Of a stretch of DNA of 64,000 nt, positions 4,085-60,489 are shown in pieces (position 1 is the stretch's first letter; each line of letters opens with the position of its first letter). The notes under the pieces were generated by a model that ran no database searches, had not been told where the DNA came from, and worked only from the letters and a program-made list of their open reading frames with translations. A program made the translations under genes and the position numbers. The DNA lies in the NCBI RefSeq assembly GCF_024496245.1, contig NZ_CP101740.1, forward strand, positions 2,417,501 through 2,481,500. The letters are read 5' to 3'. Origin of the DNA: Sphingomonas qomolangmaensis (lineage in GTDB: Bacteria > Pseudomonadota > Alphaproteobacteria > Sphingomonadales > Sphingomonadaceae).

Positions 4085-4810
4085 ATGCGTACCACCCTCG
4101 CTCTCGCCGCCCTGGCCCTGCTCGCCGCGTGCAACGGCGCCGACACCAGCTCGAACACCAGCGCGCCTGCTGCGCCGGTCGCCGCCGCGCCCGCGCCCGC
4201 CGGCCAGAACTGGACCGAAACCGTCAGCGAAACCCCCGAGGGCGGCTATCGCATGGGCAATCCCGATGCCGCGGTGAAGCTCGTCGAATATGGCTCGCGC
4301 ACCTGCCCCGCCTGCGCCGCCTTCGCCCGCGACGGCTTCGATCCGCTGACCAAGCTCGTCGAAAGCGGCAAGGTCTCGTTCGAATTCCGCGACTTCCTGA
4401 TCCACGGCGCGCCCGACCTCGCTTCGGCAGTGCTCGGCCGCTGCGGCGGCACCGCGCCCTTCTTCCCGATGCTCGAGCAGATGTATGCCGACCAGTCGGC
4501 GACGCTCGACCGGTTGCAGAACCTGTCCGAGGCGCAGCAGCAGCAATTGCAGTCGCTGCCGCCGCAGGACCAGATCGCGGCGATCGCGCAAGCCGCGGGC
4601 TATGTCGATTTCGTCAAGCAGCGCGGCATTTCGGACGCGCAGGCCAAGACCTGCCTCGCCGACACCGCGCTGGTCGACAAATTGGTGAAGACCACCGAAT
4701 CGGCGACCGAAGTCCAGGGCACCCCCAGCTTCTTCATCAACGGCGAAAAGGTCGAGAACGCCGTGAACTGGCAGCAGGTCGAAGCGGCGCTGAAGAACGC
4801 GGGGGCGTAA
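4085..4810 (+). CDS. DsbA-family thioredoxin-fold lipoprotein (CPAC)
   Basis: A 241-residue paralogue of the preceding protein. It begins with a short hydrophobic segment and a lipobox LAAC (LALLAACNGAD), followed by an Ala/Pro/Ser-rich tether to about residue 40, so it is probably membrane-anchored. The redox motif is C-P-A-C in YGSRTCPACAAF and the cis-proline loop is VQGTPSFFING. A run of five glutamines lies in the helical insert near residue 153. An AGGAGA ribosome binding site precedes the ATG. A placement between dciA and smc is recurrent in alphaproteobacteria; the link to chromosome maintenance, if any, is unknown. Thiol-disulfide function is secure, precise role is not. Confidence 0.85.
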   Translation: MRTTLALAALALLAACNGADTSSNTSAPAAPVAAAPAPAGQNWTETVSETPEGGYRMGNPDAAVKLVEYGSRTCPACAAFARDGFDPLTKLVESGKVSFEFRDFLIHGAPDLASAVLGRCGGTAPFFPMLEQMYADQSATLDRLQNLSEAQQQQLQSLPPQDQIAAIAQAAGYVDFVKQRGISDAQAKTCLADTALVDKLVKTTESATEVQGTPSFFINGEKVENAVNWQQVEAALKNAGA

Positions 4811-4833
4811 TCGCGATTGGGTGAACCATCCCT

Positions 4834-9211: not shown

Positions 9212-9337
9212 TCCCCCCTCCCTGGAAGGGAGGGGCCGGGGGTGGGTCGAGTGCTCGCGCTACGGCGGCGATAGGTGCGAGGAGAGCCATCTCCAGGACC
9301 CTACCCACCCCCAACCCCTCCCTTCCAGGGAGGGGAG
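9212..9337. repeat. Palindromic element, family B, copy 1
   Basis: A ~126-bp element with outer arms CCCTCCCTGGAAGGGAGGGG and CCCCTCCCTTCCAGGGAGGG; an inner GGGGGTGGGT pairs with ACCCACCCCC. It starts 5 bases past the E2 stop codon. Close copies are at 27030-27155 and 30922-31051, each also just past a stop codon. A transcription-stop or mRNA-stabilising role is plausible. Confidence 0.8.
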
Positions 9338-9342
9338 CTACC

Positions 9343-10713
9343 TCACTCGGCGAACAGCAGCACCGGGGTTTCGAGCAGCTTCTTCACCGCCTGGACATAG
9401 CTCGCCGCGTCGAAGCCATCGACGACACGGTGGTCGCAGCTGATCGACAGGTTCATCAGCTTGGCGCGGACCAAATCATCGCCCCGGAACATCGGCCGCT
9501 CGACAATCTTGTTCGGCCCGATGATCGCGACTTCGGGGCGGTTGATCACCGGCGTCGTCGCGATTCCGCCCAGTGGCCCGAGCGAGGTGATCGTCAGCGT
9601 CGATCCCGACAGCTCCTCGGACTTCGCCTTGCCGGTGCGCGCGGCGTCGGCCAGCCGGCCGATCTCGCTCGCCAGCTGCCAGACATTCTTGTCCTGCGCG
9701 TCGCGGATCACCGGCACCATCAGCCCGGCATCGGTCTGCGTCGCCATCCCCAGATGCACGCTACCATGCCGAGTCACGACGCCGGCTTCGTCGTCATAGC
9801 GCGCGTTGAGCATCGGGAAATCGGGGATCGTGCGGCAGATCGCGACGATCAGCAGCGGCAGCATCGTCAGCTTGGGCCGCCCGCCACGATTGGCGTTGAG
9901 ATCGGCGCGCATCTCCTCGAGCGCGGTGACGTCGATCTCGTCGACATAGGTGAAATGCGGGATCGCGCGCTTCGATGCCGCCATATTCTCGGCGATCCGC
10001 CGGCGCATCCCGATCACCTTGACCGGCACATCGGCGCGCGCGCGGCTGGCACCCGGCGCATGATAGCCCTCGCCGCCGCCATAGCGCAGATACGCATCGA
10101 GATCGGCGTGGCGGACATGGTTGCCGTCGGACTTCACCGAAGCGAGATCGACGCCCAGCGCCTTGGCCCGCGCACGAACCGCCGGCGAAGCCAGCACCTG
10201 GGGCCGATCCTCCCCGGCACGGGGAGGGGGACCATCCGCAGGATGGTGGAGGGGGGCTTCCGCAGGCGGCACCGCTTGCGGCGATCCCCCTCCACCACCG
10301 GCTTCGCCGGCGGTCCCCCTCCCCGTGTCGGGGAGGATCGGCGCAAGCCCCGCGTCCTTCGCCTCAGCACGGATCCGCGCATCTTCCTCGGGCGTCAGGC
10401 AAACCGCCTGCGCGTCGCTTGCCTCCTCGACCCCCGGATTCTCCGCGACCATCGTCGCGCTCTCGGTCACCGCCTCGGTCTCGATCACCACCAAAGTCGC
10501 GCCGATCGCGACCTGGTCACCGACCTCGCCCGCCAGTTCGACGACGACCCCCGACACCGGCGATTCCATCTCGACGGTCGCCTTGTCGGTCATCATGTCG
10601 GCGATCTGCTGGTCTTCCTCGACCCGGTCGCCGACCGCGATATGCCATTGAACGATCTCGGCCTCGGCAATGCCTTCGCCGATATCGGGCAGGCGGAAAG
10701 AGAATCGCGCCAT
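9343..10713 (-). CDS. bkdB: Branched-chain 2-oxoacid dehydrogenase E2 (dihydrolipoyl acyltransferase)
   Basis: E2 transfers the acyl group from E1 to CoA through a lipoyl swinging arm in the branched-chain 2-oxoacid dehydrogenase complex. The 456-residue protein has a lipoyl domain (residues ~3-80, lipoylated Lys44 in MTDKATVEM), a linker, a peripheral-subunit-binding domain (~173-208, LASPAVRARAKALGVDL) and a catalytic CoA-acyltransferase domain with ISCDHRVVDG near the C-terminus. The linker at residues ~125-171 is encoded almost wholly by a palindromic DNA element (10206-10339), an unusual in-frame insertion. It lies 2 bases after E1 beta in the same operon. Could in principle serve another 2-oxoacid complex, but the separate E1 alpha/beta sequences favour the branched-chain type. 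Confidence 0.92.
   Translation of the reverse strand: MARFSFRLPDIGEGIAEAEIVQWHIAVGDRVEEDQQIADMMTDKATVEMESPVSGVVVELAGEVGDQVAIGATLVVIETEAVTESATMVAENPGVEEASDAQAVCLTPEEDARIRAEAKDAGLAPILPDTGRGTAGEAGGGGGSPQAVPPAEAPLHHPADGPPPRAGEDRPQVLASPAVRARAKALGVDLASVKSDGNHVRHADLDAYLRYGGGEGYHAPGASRARADVPVKVIGMRRRIAENMAASKRAIPHFTYVDEIDVTALEEMRADLNANRGGRPKLTMLPLLIVAICRTIPDFPMLNARYDDEAGVVTRHGSVHLGMATQTDAGLMVPVIRDAQDKNVWQLASEIGRLADAARTGKAKSEELSGSTLTITSLGPLGGIATTPVINRPEVAIIGPNKIVERPMFRGDDLVRAKLMNLSISCDHRVVDGFDAASYVQAVKKLLETPVLLFAE
10206..10339 (-). repeat. In-frame palindromic element inside the E2 gene, family D copy 1
   Basis: This ~134-bp segment has outer arms GATCCTCCCC / GGGGAGGATC and nested pairs such as CCATCCGCAGGATGG and CCACCGGCTTCGCCGGCGG. 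Read on the minus strand it is fully open and encodes ILPDTGRGTAGEAGGGGGSP followed by a Pro/Ala/His-rich stretch, forming the linker between the lipoyl and E3/E1-binding domains. A related element occupies 32831-32949 inside ligD in the same frame and orientation relative to its gene. Confidence 0.85.
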
Positions 10714-25930: not shown

Positions 25931-26018
25931 ACAGGCCCTCACCCTATCGCGCCTCCCTCCCTCTCCCGCCTGCGGGAGAGGGAGGGAGGCGCGTAGCGCC
26001 GGAAGGGTGAGGGCCTGT
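25931..26018. repeat. 88-bp nested palindrome, family C
   Basis: Outer arms ACAGGCCCTCACCCT and AGGGTGAGGGCCTGT are perfect over 15 bp. Inside are GCGCCTCCCTCCCTCTCCCG and CGGGAGAGGGAGGGAGGCGC, also complementary. It occupies nearly the whole gap between the dnaJ-like stop and the YihY-family start. Such a structure would form a very stable hairpin in RNA or a cruciform in DNA. Confidence 0.85.
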
Positions 26019-26958: not shown

Positions 26959-27029
26959 GTAGTTCCCCGTTGGTTGGTCGCGCCCTAGATGGGCGAAGGG
27001 AGCCGGATTCGCAATCTTCCTCCCCTTCT

Positions 27030-27155
27030 TCCCCCCTCCCTGAAAGGGAGGGGCCGGGGGTGGGTCGAGTGCTCGCGATACGGAAGCCGCACGCGCAACA
27101 GCAACCATATCCCCAGGACGCTACCCACCCCCAACCCCTCCCTAGGAGGGAGGGG
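27030..27155. repeat. Palindromic element, family B, copy 2
   Basis: Same layout as 9212-9337: CCCTCCCTGAAAGGGAGGGG, GGGGGTGGGTCGAGTGCTCG, a variable middle, then ACCCACCCCCAACCCCTCCC. It begins 5 bases beyond the stop of the transglutaminase-like gene. Confidence 0.8.
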
Positions 27156-27160
27156 AGTAG

Positions 27161-28042: not shown

Positions 28043-28355
28043 CGGGCGGGGAATCCCCGTATCGACGAACGAACCACCCTATCCCCGTCCGGGTGAGGTG
28101 CGCGCGCCCCAACCCCCCGTTCGCCCTGAGCTTGTCGAAGGGTCGGCCCGAACCATCCACGGACGCGCCCGGCGGAAAATGCGGGCCGATGCTTCGACAA
28201 GCTCAGCACGAACGGAGATTGGGGTCGACACCCCTCACCCCCCGTTCGCCCTGAGCTTGTCGAAGGGCCGCCGCGAACCATCCACGGACGCGACCCGCGG
28301 AAAACGGGAGCCAACGCCCCGACAGGCACACCGCCACCGCAAGGAACCGAAAAAC
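28043..28355. repeat. Family A repeats with a ~124-bp tandem duplication
   Basis: This 313-base gap holds no gene. A family A palindrome spans 28118-28215 (CGTTCGCCCTGAGCTTGTCG with CGACAAGCTCAGCACGAACG). A second left arm begins at 28242, followed again by GAACCATCCACGGACGCG, so the block 28118-28241 is partly repeated as 28242-28325, the second copy lacking an intact right arm. Confidence 0.75.
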
Positions 28356-30921: not shown

Positions 30922-31051
30922 CTCCCCTCCCTGAAAGGGAGGGGCCGGGGGTGGGTCGAGTGCTGGTGCAGGCGACCGCGACCAACCGCGCGGGCAACCG
31001 TACCGCACCCAACTCCACCCACCCCCATCCCCTCCCTTCCAGGGAGGGGAG
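30922..31051. repeat. Palindromic element, family B, copy 3
   Basis: Arms CTCCCCTCCCTGAAAGGGAG and CCCTCCCTTCCAGGGAGGGG, with internal GGGGGTGGGT and ACCCACCCCC. It starts 4 bases past the ligD stop and fills most of the gap to the ATP-grasp/alpha-E start. Confidence 0.8.
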
Positions 31052-31055
31052 CAAT

Positions 31056-33533
31056 TCACAAATCGGGCAGCACCTGCCGCGCCGCGCCCCAGCCTGCCAG
31101 CCCGCGCCCGTTCGCACGTTCGATCAGCTCGGCGGCATCGCGCACGCTCCAGCGTGCGGGGGTGTCGATGTCCTTGAGCTCGGTCCACGACACCGGCGCC
31201 GCCACCGGCGCCCCCGGCCGTGCGCGCGCGACATACGGCAGCACCGCGGTGCTCCCGCGCTGGTTGCGCAGCCAGTCGAGGAAGATCCGCCCCTTGCGCT
31301 TGGCCTTCGACATCGTCGCGACATAGCGTTCGGGCTCGTTCGCCGCCAAGGCGCGGCAAAAGCGGTCGGCGAACGACTTGACCGCGGGCCACTGCGCCAC
31401 CGGGGTCAGCGGCACCACCACATGCACCCCCTTGCCCCCCGACAGCATCGCGAAGCTCGTCAGCCCCAGATCGGCCAATTGCGTCTTGATATCGATCGCC
31501 GCGCGCTTGACCTCGTCGAAGCCGAGCCCCTCGTCGGGGTCGAGGTCGAATACCAGCCGATCGGGCTTTTCGACATCGCCCACCAGCGATCCCCAGCCGT
31601 GAAACTCGATCGTCCCCATCTGCACGCACGCCGCCAGGCCGTCGGCGTCGTCGACATATAGATACGGCTCGGTCGATCCGTCCTTCTCGCGGATATCGAC
31701 CTGGTGGACCTGCTTGCCGAAGCTTCCCGCGTCGTGCTTCTGGAAGAAGCATTGCTTGGCGCGCCCCTGCGGACAGCGCACCAGGCTGATCGGCCGGTTC
31801 GCCGCGAAGGGCAGCAGGATTCCCGCGACATCGGCATAATAATCGGCGAGCTGGCCCTTGGTGATCCCGTCCTCGGGAAAGATGATGCGATCGGCGCTGC
31901 TGATCTTCACGCTCGACGCCGCGCGCTCGACCGCCACCGGCACCTCGGCCACCACGTCCTTGGCCGCCTTGTCGCCGCGCAGGCCGAGGTAGCTCGCATG
32001 CCGCAGCACGCCCTCTCCGGTGAATTCGGCAAACGCCACCTCGGCGACCAGCTTGGGGGTCACCCACTGCGCCCCGCGCGCCGCGGCCTGGGGCACGTCC
32101 ACCGGCGCGGTCTTGCGCGCGAGCTTTTCGAGCCGTCCCAGCAGATCGTCCTGCGTCGCGGCATCGAAGCCCGTCCCGACCTTGCCCGCATAGACCAGGC
32201 CGTCGTCGCCGTGCAGCCCGACCAGCAACGACGCGAAGCCGCGCCCCTTGGCCTTGGTCGGCAGCCAGCCGACGATCACGAATTCCTGCCGCCGCGTGCA
32301 CTTCACCTTCAGCCACGCCTTGGTCCGCGTGCCGCGATAGGGCGCGTCGATCTTCTTCGACACGATCCCCTCATAGCCCTCGCGGCACATCGCCTCGAAC
32401 AGCTCTTCGCCCGCGCCGACGACATGCTCGGCGAACTGGATGCGATCGTCCTCGGCGGGGATCAGCGGACGCAACCGCTCCTTGCGCTGCACCAGCGGCA
32501 ATGCGGCAAGATCCTCACCACCTTCTGCCAGCAGGTCGAACGCGAACAATGTCAGCCCGTCGCCGCCCTCCGAAATCGCCTTCTGCAATGTCGAGAAATC
32601 GGGCTTGCCATCCTTGAATGCGACGATCTCGCCATCGATCAGCGCGGGCGCGATCGTTTCGGCGACCGCGACGATCCCGGGAAACTTGTCCGACCAGTCG
32701 AGCCCCGACCGCGTGAAGACCTTGGCGCTAGGCCCGGTGGAGATCAGCGCGCGATAGCCGTCATATTTTACCTCGTGGAGCCAGCCGTTCCCGGCAGGCA
32801 CCGAGTCGACCAACGTGGCGAGCTGCAACGCCCTAAATCCTCCCCCAGCGGTGGAGGGGGCTTTCCGCGAGCGCACCGCCTGCGGCTCCCCCCCTCCACC
32901 ACGCCCTGCGGGCGCGGTCCCCCTCCCCCGCTGGGGGAGGATTTTAGGGGCCGCCTTCCCCTCGGCGATCTCGGCCATCGTCCGCCCGGTCTTCACGCTG
33001 GTCAGTTCGCCCTCGACCAGCGCATCCGATCCCCCCGCATAGGCATCGTTCACCTTGCGCAGCAGCCAGTTCTCGCCGCGTTCCTTGCCGCGCGGTTTCA
33101 GCCGGATCATCATCCACTCGCCGCGCATCCGCTGCCCGTCGAGTATGAAGTGTAGATGGCCGTCCTCGATATCCTTCGCCGACTTGCCCGCGATCGGCGC
33201 CCAGCTGCCGTCGTCCCACAGCATCACCGTCCCGCCGCCATATTCCTTGGCCGGGATCACGCCTTCGAAATCGCCATACGACAGCGGATGGTCCTCGGTT
33301 CGCACCGCGAGGCGCTTGTCGTCGGGGTTTAGGCTAGGCCCGCGCGTCACCGCCCAGCTCTTGAGCACCCCGTCGACCTCGATGCGGAAATCATAATGCA
33401 GCCGGCTGGCGTCGTGCTTCTGCACGATGAAGCGGTTGCCCTTGCCCTTCTCAAGCGTCCCGGCGGGTTCGGCGGTACGCGAGAAATCGCGCTTGGCGTT
33501 ATATTTGGCGAGCGGATCGGGGGCTTTAGCCAC
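31056..33533 (-). CDS. ligD: ATP-dependent DNA ligase LigD (PE-LIG-POL), NHEJ
   Basis: LigD processes and seals double-strand breaks with Ku. Domain order in the ~825-residue protein is 3'-phosphoesterase (~25-175; HDASRLHYDFRIEVDGVLKS, WAVTRGPS), ATP-dependent ligase (~235-530; nucleotidyl lysine in LHEVKYDGYRAL, LIDGEIVAF, EGIVSKK), and archaeo-eukaryotic primase-type polymerase (~550-820; VFDLDPDEGLGF). This matches the Pseudomonas order. Residues ~196-235, the linker between phosphoesterase and ligase, are encoded by the palindromic element 32831-32949. GTG at 33533 is chosen because GGAGAAAGGGAT precedes it; an upstream in-frame ATG lies inside the adjoining palindrome. ku lies just upstream on the same strand. 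Confidence 0.94.
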   Translation of the reverse strand: MAKAPDPLAKYNAKRDFSRTAEPAGTLEKGKGNRFIVQKHDASRLHYDFRIEVDGVLKSWAVTRGPSLNPDDKRLAVRTEDHPLSYGDFEGVIPAKEYGGGTVMLWDDGSWAPIAGKSAKDIEDGHLHFILDGQRMRGEWMMIRLKPRGKERGENWLLRKVNDAYAGGSDALVEGELTSVKTGRTMAEIAEGKAAPKILPQRGRGTAPAGRGGGGEPQAVRSRKAPSTAGGGFRALQLATLVDSVPAGNGWLHEVKYDGYRALISTGPSAKVFTRSGLDWSDKFPGIVAVAETIAPALIDGEIVAFKDGKPDFSTLQKAISEGGDGLTLFAFDLLAEGGEDLAALPLVQRKERLRPLIPAEDDRIQFAEHVVGAGEELFEAMCREGYEGIVSKKIDAPYRGTRTKAWLKVKCTRRQEFVIVGWLPTKAKGRGFASLLVGLHGDDGLVYAGKVGTGFDAATQDDLLGRLEKLARKTAPVDVPQAAARGAQWVTPKLVAEVAFAEFTGEGVLRHASYLGLRGDKAAKDVVAEVPVAVERAASSVKISSADRIIFPEDGITKGQLADYYADVAGILLPFAANRPISLVRCPQGRAKQCFFQKHDAGSFGKQVHQVDIREKDGSTEPYLYVDDADGLAACVQMGTIEFHGWGSLVGDVEKPDRLVFDLDPDEGLGFDEVKRAAIDIKTQLADLGLTSFAMLSGGKGVHVVVPLTPVAQWPAVKSFADRFCRALAANEPERYVATMSKAKRKGRIFLDWLRNQRGSTAVLPYVARARPGAPVAAPVSWTELKDIDTPARWSVRDAAELIERANGRGLAGWGAARQVLPDL
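32831..32949 (-). repeat. In-frame palindromic element inside ligD, family D copy 2
   Basis: Arms CCCTAAATCCTCCCCCAGCG and CGCTGGGGGAGGATTTTAGG enclose nested complementary runs including GGTGGAGGGGG and CCCCCCTCCACC. On the minus strand it is open and encodes KILPQRGRGTAPAGRGGGGE then PQAV and a basic stretch. Shared with the E2 copy: ILPxxGRGTA, a Gly run, and PQAV, in the same frame. It lacks one internal stem found in the E2 copy. Confidence 0.85.
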
Positions 33534-33550
33534 GGCGATCCCTTTCTCCC

Positions 33551-33626
33551 CGTTCGTTTCGAGCGAAGTCGAGAAACCCATATGGCGCGCTTAGCTGCCG
33601 TTTCTCGACTTCGCTCGAAACGAACG
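33551..33626. repeat. Perfect 27-bp-arm palindrome between ku and ligD
   Basis: The left arm starts CGTTCGTTTCGAGCGAAGTC and continues GAGAAAC; the right arm is its exact reverse complement, separated by about 21 bases. It shares the CGTTCG end with family A but has a different core. It lies in the 102-base gap between ku and ligD and could partly uncouple their expression. Confidence 0.85.
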
Positions 33627-33635
33627 GTGGCCCCA

Positions 33636-60309: not shown

Positions 60310-60344
60310 GGATTTTCCAATAGGCTCGCCTGCCGGCCCTGGGT

Positions 60345-60489
60345 CCGTTCGTCCTGAGTAGCCGTCGAGTAGCCCCGCAGGGGCGTATCGAGACGGCGTA
60401 TCGAAGGAGGCCACCGGGAGGCGGTGCTTCGATACGAGCCCTCGACACGCCGCTGCGCGGCTACTCGGTCTCTACTCAGCACGAACGGA
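60345..60489. repeat. Family A compound repeat inside the SPFH-DUF4178 spacer
   Basis: A ~145-bp inverted structure: GTCCGTTCGTCCTGAGTAGC ... GGCTACTCGGTCTCTACTCA GCACGAACGGA, with internal GTATCGAGACGG/CGTATCGAAGG and TGCTTCGATACGAGCCCTCG. It resembles 54280-54400, at the other end of the same gene cluster. Confidence 0.75.

Follow-up and report, generated by a model that had tools for sequence, protein, structure and literature searches.

Among the described systems closest to the locus reported here are the REPIN-RAYT systems (REPtrons), in which GTAG-type REPs pair up as short inverted palindromes separated by a spacer, lie mainly between genes, and flank the gene of a Y1 tyrosine transposase that is matched to its own repeats. 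The CGTC-type REPs of Alphaproteobacteria, including the Rickettsia elements RPE-4 and RPE-6, are often dimers and sometimes lie in frame in genes, and no dedicated transposase is known for them according to excerpts of PMC3733652. In-frame REPs within genes are already on record there, sphingomonads such as S. alaskensis included, as they are for the Rickettsia palindromic elements, which are ~105-146 bp long, lie in unrelated protein genes and have no known mobiliser according to excerpts of PMC2229807. The same excerpts describe the Caulobacter CIR repeats, which are also alphaproteobacterial, measure ~110 bp and consist of two inverted-repeat arms. A further relevant group are the EDxHD homing endonucleases, such as I-Bth0305I, whose genes likewise are nuclease genes within mobile units (excerpts of PMC3943268).

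The repeats analysed here share with the REPIN-RAYT systems their dimeric build, their mainly intergenic position and an enzyme gene that is flanked by matching repeats. They differ in that this enzyme is DUF559, an unrelated nuclease family, that Y1 was not found in the host genome, and that the palindromes are pyrimidine-rich. The Rickettsia palindromic elements, to which we liken them by description, belong to another lineage; the CIR repeats are set apart by description, being defined by a conserved GANTC site (excerpts of PMC2229807). Unlike the genes of EDxHD homing endonucleases, the DUF559 genes are single-domain, lie outside introns and are enclosed by palindromes that are also present as many gene-less copies.

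The stretch of DNA that was analysed (64,000 nt of the Sphingomonas qomolangmaensis genome) is referred to as the window. The original prediction described a nested palindrome of ~134 bp in bkdB and a relative of ~119 bp in ligD; both proved to be real and to lie where they had been placed. These two elements, their host genes and three dimers of another family, which were found by an inverted-repeat and family-D motif search, are as follows:

10206..10339, minus strand: family-A nested palindrome of 134 nt, in frame in the linker of bkdB (E2)
32831..32949, minus strand: family-A nested palindrome of 119 nt, in frame in the linker of ligD; the close genome G010 also has one
9343..10713, minus strand: bkdB, gene of an E2 acyltransferase whose domains are lipoyl, E3-binding and catalytic; contains the first palindrome
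31056..33581, minus strand: ligD, an open frame with Pfam and NCBIfam domains, host of the second palindrome
9215..9335, no strand assigned: family-D palindrome dimer, directly past the end of bkdB
27028..27160, no strand assigned: family-D palindrome dimer
30922..31051, no strand assigned: family-D palindrome dimer, directly past the end of ligD

The start of bkdB was set at 10713, as in the search query, within an open frame that extends to 10779. In the bkdB copy, 36-nt arms (10198-10233 and 10312-10347) are 92% complementary, lie 78 nt apart and enclose a further inverted repeat at 10244-10297. The ligD copy has 26-nt arms (32835-32860 and 32919-32944; 96% complementary) and an inner repeat at 32850-32900, so that terminal inverted repeats of the kind looked for in MITEs are present in both. 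When folded as single-stranded DNA, the two copies reached z = -10.8 (bkdB) and z = -8.2 (ligD), and 0 of 200 shuffles equalled either value. The peptide encoded by the bkdB copy, ILPDTGRGTAGEAGGGGGSPQAV... (residues about 125-170), follows the lipoyl domain (6-77) and precedes the E3-binding domain (173-197), while that of the ligD copy, ILPQRGRGTAPAGRGGGGEPQAV... (residues about 211-251), falls between the 3'-phosphoesterase domain (54-160 by Pfam; 24-179 by NCBIfam) and the ligase part, which NCBIfam TIGR02779 recognises from residue 253. The domain borders of Pfam and NCBIfam thus agree with the view that both copies lie in frame in interdomain linkers. In-frame palindromes within unrelated protein genes, as known from the Rickettsia elements, were found in bkdB, in ligD and in their orthologues. 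The ligD protein passed the DNA ligase D models of NCBIfam; the E2 protein reached no NCBIfam equivalog cut-off, and 'bkdB' is therefore retained as the name given earlier.

Orientation and frame turned out to be less telling. Both copies do lie on the same strand as their gene (minus), but since the element reads almost the same on both strands, this says little. A strictly shared reading frame was rejected because the family-A insert in the ligD orthologue at locus L101 uses a different frame. Furthermore, 23 full-length family-A copies had a mean of 5.0 of their 6 frames open, so that read-through is easy in nearly any frame and a frame common to two copies is weak evidence. Domestication, which the prediction named beside tolerance, was likewise not supported. 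We conclude that the observation in bkdB and ligD is a sound case of an already known kind of event.

The idea that the palindrome belongs to a mobile-type, dispersed repeat family was borne out with regard to dispersal by a search of the host genome (3.43 Mb, one contig), in which two queries gave 70 and 49 matches with both strands counted; movement itself is suggested by comparison of sequences. The core GGTCCCCCTCCCC occurred 52 times in this genome, as compared to 20 times for the reversed control pattern. Merging by hand left at least 39 family-A site entries, of which two flank a single DUF559 gene as its half-elements and some contain several copies; more may exist, since scoring covered 40 of 84 candidates for one query and 40 of 67 for the other. 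Judged by eye, the layout consists of TCCTCCCC-loop-GGGGAGG and GGGACC-hairpin-GGTGGAGGGGG, a variable centre and the mirror image, and in a variant half TGGC...GACGG replaces GGACC...GGTGG. Reading by eye also identified two of the 39 entries as clearly gene-interrupting, both of them in the window. The automatic in-gene test, based on codon-position G+C on either side of an element within one open frame, flagged a third entry (242871-243027 in L006, minus strand), which we read as probably intergenic: a gene-like plus-strand frame stops just before it. Most other entries look intergenic as well. The notion of in-gene copies thus stood for the two in-frame linker insertions, whereas most of the 39 entries lie outside genes. 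One family-A element (L023, ~4687-4816; genome 2377441-2377570) was seen at a rearrangement breakpoint, its two sides mapping apart in G010. Palindromes of other families, intergenic in appearance, were seen in the window at 25948-25993, 28105-28265, 33550-33627 and 60344-60489. Known Rfam RNAs were rejected as an identity for the repeats, since positions 9000-34000 of the window gave 18 matches with E up to 1, 16 of them to miRNA models and none at the gathering score. A phage source was rejected as well (1 partial match among 50,697 phage records; 27 plasmid records, all below 60% identity).

All 121 genomes of the genus, the host included, matched both query proteins, several of the ligD matches being weak, and loci were examined in the best 30 of these 121 genomes (host included) for each gene. 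An inverted-repeat score of at least 16 was reached by 23 of 29 bkdB linkers (L067 was left out because its anchor was not found) versus 0 of 58 control windows, and by 16 of 30 ligD linkers versus 0 of 90. The linkers differ in length and composition among the orthologues examined. By rough motif matches, the bkdB linker holds, depending on the species, family A (ILPGTGRGT...), the CCCTCTCC family (PSPLRGEG...PLPGGERE), a D/E-type palindrome (PLPAREGPGVG...), an AKAGAQ type, or none, and the ligD linker holds family A, other palindromes (SSRRKPGSR...DPGFRRGDG and similar) or none. In our own reading of the sequence, CGTC-like palindromes also occur in the ligD linker and at the G010 counterpart of the L040 site. 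The comparison of orthologues upheld the expected presence and absence at these sites, with the same linkers carrying family A, another palindrome or none. The best ligD matches in G033, G057 and G091 contain one or two in-frame TGA codons.

Two of the family-A loci in the host genome enclose an open frame of the DUF559 family (PF04480), a Vsr-like endonuclease. A profile search yielded 11 PF04480 places in this genome, one of them a weak partial match (22.8 bits) in a 1976-aa frame; the ten others span the full domain in stop-to-stop frames of 136-513 aa. All ten of these are enclosed by close inverted palindromic sequence, with inverted-repeat scores of 16.5-46.5, and the DUF559 gene takes the position where ordinary palindrome copies have their short spacer. 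The surrounding palindromes were assigned by eye to type A (L043, L044), a variant of A (L042), B (L035), C (L036, L040), D (L037-L039) and E (L041), the flanking palindrome being interrupted by a short insert at L037 and L041. Palindromic inserts of ~60 nt (AGTGTC...GACACT or a relative) were seen inside the palindromes at L037 (~1880-1943), at L041 (~1384-1447) and at L277, which corresponds by synteny in G010 to L039; it looks as though these hairpins were the target of a further small element. Several of the L035-L044 frames run into the palindrome, which then encodes a C-terminal tail, for example PLPTLSPEGERAL in L040.

Family D, present in the window as three dimers, flanks three of these DUF559 genes elsewhere in the genome (L037-L039). 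The host genome contains 76 family-D half-elements, as compared to 0 for the reversed pattern. Counted by hand, 26 inverted pairs lie within 200 nt of each other, 20 of which are spaced 87-92 nt, and two pairs that are 414 nt apart enclose the DUF559 genes L038 and L039. Inverted palindrome dimers with a short, regular spacer, as known from REPINs, were thus found for family D (20/26) and in the nested dimers of family A, and the enzyme gene enclosed by the same repeats is a DUF559 gene and not a RAYT gene. The Y1 transposase profile PF01797 had 0 matches in the host genome, and the control search matched 5 of 14 known genomes; RAYT-driven REPs were rejected on the basis of this result. The solved structures nearest to DUF559 by profile are 3hrl ('Endonuclease-Like Protein'; E 3e-34, the best match) and 3r3p ('Mobile intron protein'; E 2.4e-4), on which matches the fold assignment rests. 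The latter, which we take to be I-Bth0305I, provides the profile kinship to a known homing endonuclease.

The association was not confined to this genome. PF04480 was present in 93 of 289 genomes of the class (Alphaproteobacteria) and in 108 of 299 sampled proteobacterial genomes, weak matches included in both counts. An inverted repeat spanned the DUF559 gene at 56 of 78 alphaproteobacterial loci, a subset of the strong PF04480 matches that was mainly best-scoring, with later ones chosen by hand, versus 1 of 155 same-locus windows; 22 of the 78 fell below the threshold. Because same-locus windows ignore gene borders, ordinary genes were added as a control, and 8 of 347 had an inverted repeat across them (0/41 in the window and 8/306 in 400 kb of G010; simple gene caller). 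In addition, 80 named loci were retrieved with the family-A alignment from Sphingomonas, Sphingobium, Novosphingobium, Phenylobacterium, Caulobacter, Brevundimonas and others. In a test whose flanks started slightly inside the protein match, 72 of 79 were enclosed by an inverted repeat versus 5 of 307 control windows, and most of their arms show the family-A motif by eye. Outside the Alphaproteobacteria, the repeat was found at 8 of 15 loci, the remaining 7 being below threshold, as compared to 6 of 11 in the class by the same test and 1 of 52 controls. The pyrimidine-rich core (CCTCTCCC, CCTCCCC or CCCACCCC) was present on both flanks at 58/78, 13/26 and 64/72 loci versus 1/208 windows; this test covered 72 of the 80 named loci, the other eight having short flanks or having been excluded. 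CGTC motifs on both flanks were found at just 0/78, 0/26 and 2/72 loci, which sets these repeats apart from the CGTC-type REPs. Loci at contig edges were omitted, namely L124 (class repeat, flank-matching and core tests), L221 (named family-A test) and L296 (outside-class and core tests). A first flank control, in which flanks of different genes were cross-paired and 10 of 38 loci ranked in the top 2%, was discarded, given the resemblance among palindromes from different genomes. Records titled Microvirga sp. SRT01 (L213) and Arthrobacter sp. TPD3018 (L234) have a family-A-like DUF559, and may be misnamed or have received the gene by transfer.

Protein identity among DUF559 members correlated with the similarity of their flanks (rho 0.246, with 0.194 as the highest of 2000 permutations), in a comparison that left out pairs of at least 80% identity, included some syntenic pairs with a shared chromosomal flank, and was uncorrected for kinship. 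Relatedness of DUF559 thus appears to track the palindrome type. Two DUF559 loci of the class without palindromes (L119 and L120), which have very similar flanks (score 137) and proteins that are 55% identical, are perhaps a fixed, vertically inherited version. With regard to dose, the 82 genus genomes with a family-A DUF559 had a median of 24 family-A half-elements, as opposed to a median of 1 in the 39 without; in this test of 121 genomes, also uncorrected for kinship, a family-A DUF559 was defined by a best E of at most 1e-26, a cut-off of our own choosing. Exceptions were G023, G037, G092 and G110, which have 13-26 half-elements and no family-A DUF559 at this cut-off, with G037 narrowly missing it (best E = 2.1e-26), and G074, which has the gene and zero half-elements. 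Judged by these counts, palindrome number appears to follow the presence of DUF559.

Turnover became apparent when the ten DUF559 sites were compared with the close genome G010, whose flanks are 89-97% identical. The same DUF559 was present in G010 at four sites (L036, L042 and L043 with 87-97% protein identity, and L037 by place only), and a different one, 44-50% identical, at three (L044/L157, L035/L158 and L038/L155). Two sites in G010 carried a palindrome of another family without DUF559 (L039, L040), and one carried neither (L041). Likewise, the bkdB linker of G010 holds a C-type palindrome where the host has the A-type, and G010 also carries, immediately ahead of the bkdB start codon, a 103-bp segment whose palindrome is of still another family; the host genome has none there. 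Most of the compared family-A sites were of similar length in both genomes; the comparison drew on syntenic G010 sequence for all but 11 of the 39 entries, one more being rearranged. At L017 the family-A element lies between two genes that form a tight junction in G010; 'TCA' on either side could be a short duplication, or retained start and stop codons. At L027 one solo hairpin remains in G010.

What was observed comprises the architecture and how widely it recurs, the correspondence between DUF559 and palindrome types, presence/absence and exchange between two close genomes, and in-frame linker insertions by several families. We infer from this that DUF559 drives the movement, and that it does so through a cut-and-repair step. 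Our main reading, to which we assign a probability of roughly 0.6, is a REPIN-like system with a DUF559 nuclease as partner enzyme that would act by cleavage and repair. The palindrome would be the non-autonomous, REPIN-like repeat, made of two inverted halves with one or two pyrimidine-rich hairpins each around a short spacer, and in the autonomous form a small DUF559 gene would stand between the same halves instead of the spacer. The nuclease would recognise its cognate palindrome, perhaps as an extruded structure or a single strand, and cut or nick the DNA there, and repair of the break would copy the element into a new or already occupied site in a homing-like manner. The stop-poor palindromes would readily be read through, and copies within genes would survive only if in frame at a tolerant place, so that they would accumulate in linkers between domains, of the kind present in bkdB and ligD.

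Other explanations have to be set against this reading. One is that the two gene segments are merely GC-rich, flexible linkers that are palindromic by chance. The variation of linker length and composition among orthologues would suit it, but palindromic DNA in 23/29 and 16/30 linkers versus 0/58 and 0/90 windows, the recurrence of the same DNA elsewhere in the genome, and the other palindrome family at the G010 bkdB position all argue against it; on the inverted-repeat counts we rejected this explanation, which is hardly credible. Also very improbable is the view of DUF559 as an ordinary repair or defence nuclease whose place in palindrome-rich intergenic regions is coincidental. A Caulobacter DUF559 protein is described as a Vsr-like repair protein in excerpts of PMC12907096, weak PADLOC matches make a defence role possible, and 22 of 78 class loci are without an inverted repeat. 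However, such a nuclease would not be expected to have the repeat across 56/78 and 72/79 loci when ordinary genes have it in 8/347, nor would its type match the palindrome type, and close genomes would not differ in DUF559 content at the same sites.

A stronger contender, although still an unlikely one, is that DUF559 is a homing-type passenger. The palindromes would then spread by other means, and the nuclease would cut cognate palindromes and have its own gene copied into their spacers. This would account for the profile kinship to a mobile-intron endonuclease, the position of the gene in the spacer of otherwise ordinary dimers, the re-occupation of sites by different DUF559 genes, and the four genomes that have 13-26 half-elements and no family-A DUF559 at the cut-off. 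Against it, the presence of DUF559 goes with the number of palindromes, and no other mobiliser is known for them, Y1, the transposase searched for, being absent. We favour DUF559 as the partner enzyme of the palindromes. That DUF559 acts on DNA in cells is supported by Caulobacter without ScmA, in which the SOS response depends on the DUF559 protein VsrA (excerpts of PMC12907096).

In a more general form, which we consider about an even bet, DUF559 proteins would be the dedicated mobility enzymes of a further, pyrimidine-rich REP superfamily across Proteobacteria. They would cut palindromes and copy them through repair, different DUF559 cassettes would displace each other at shared sites, in-frame protein linkers would be written, and the process would be transposition-like without a transposase. 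A search of titles and abstracts in the open-licence literature found no paper that links DUF559 with palindromic repeats, and DUF559 nucleases as partners of a large, pyrimidine-rich set of palindromic repeats are apparently undescribed. Through this link, such repeats may have a means of spreading, and of extending the linkers of proteins, that had previously gone unrecognised. A likely biology thereby emerges for a domain of unknown function, and a large set of palindromes gains a named candidate enzyme, of which a relative (3hrl) has a solved structure and which was found in more than a third of the sampled proteobacterial genomes when weak matches are included; this makes the question testable. 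Moreover, the lengthening of the same protein linkers, in frame, by several repeat families would constitute a route to new protein sequence.
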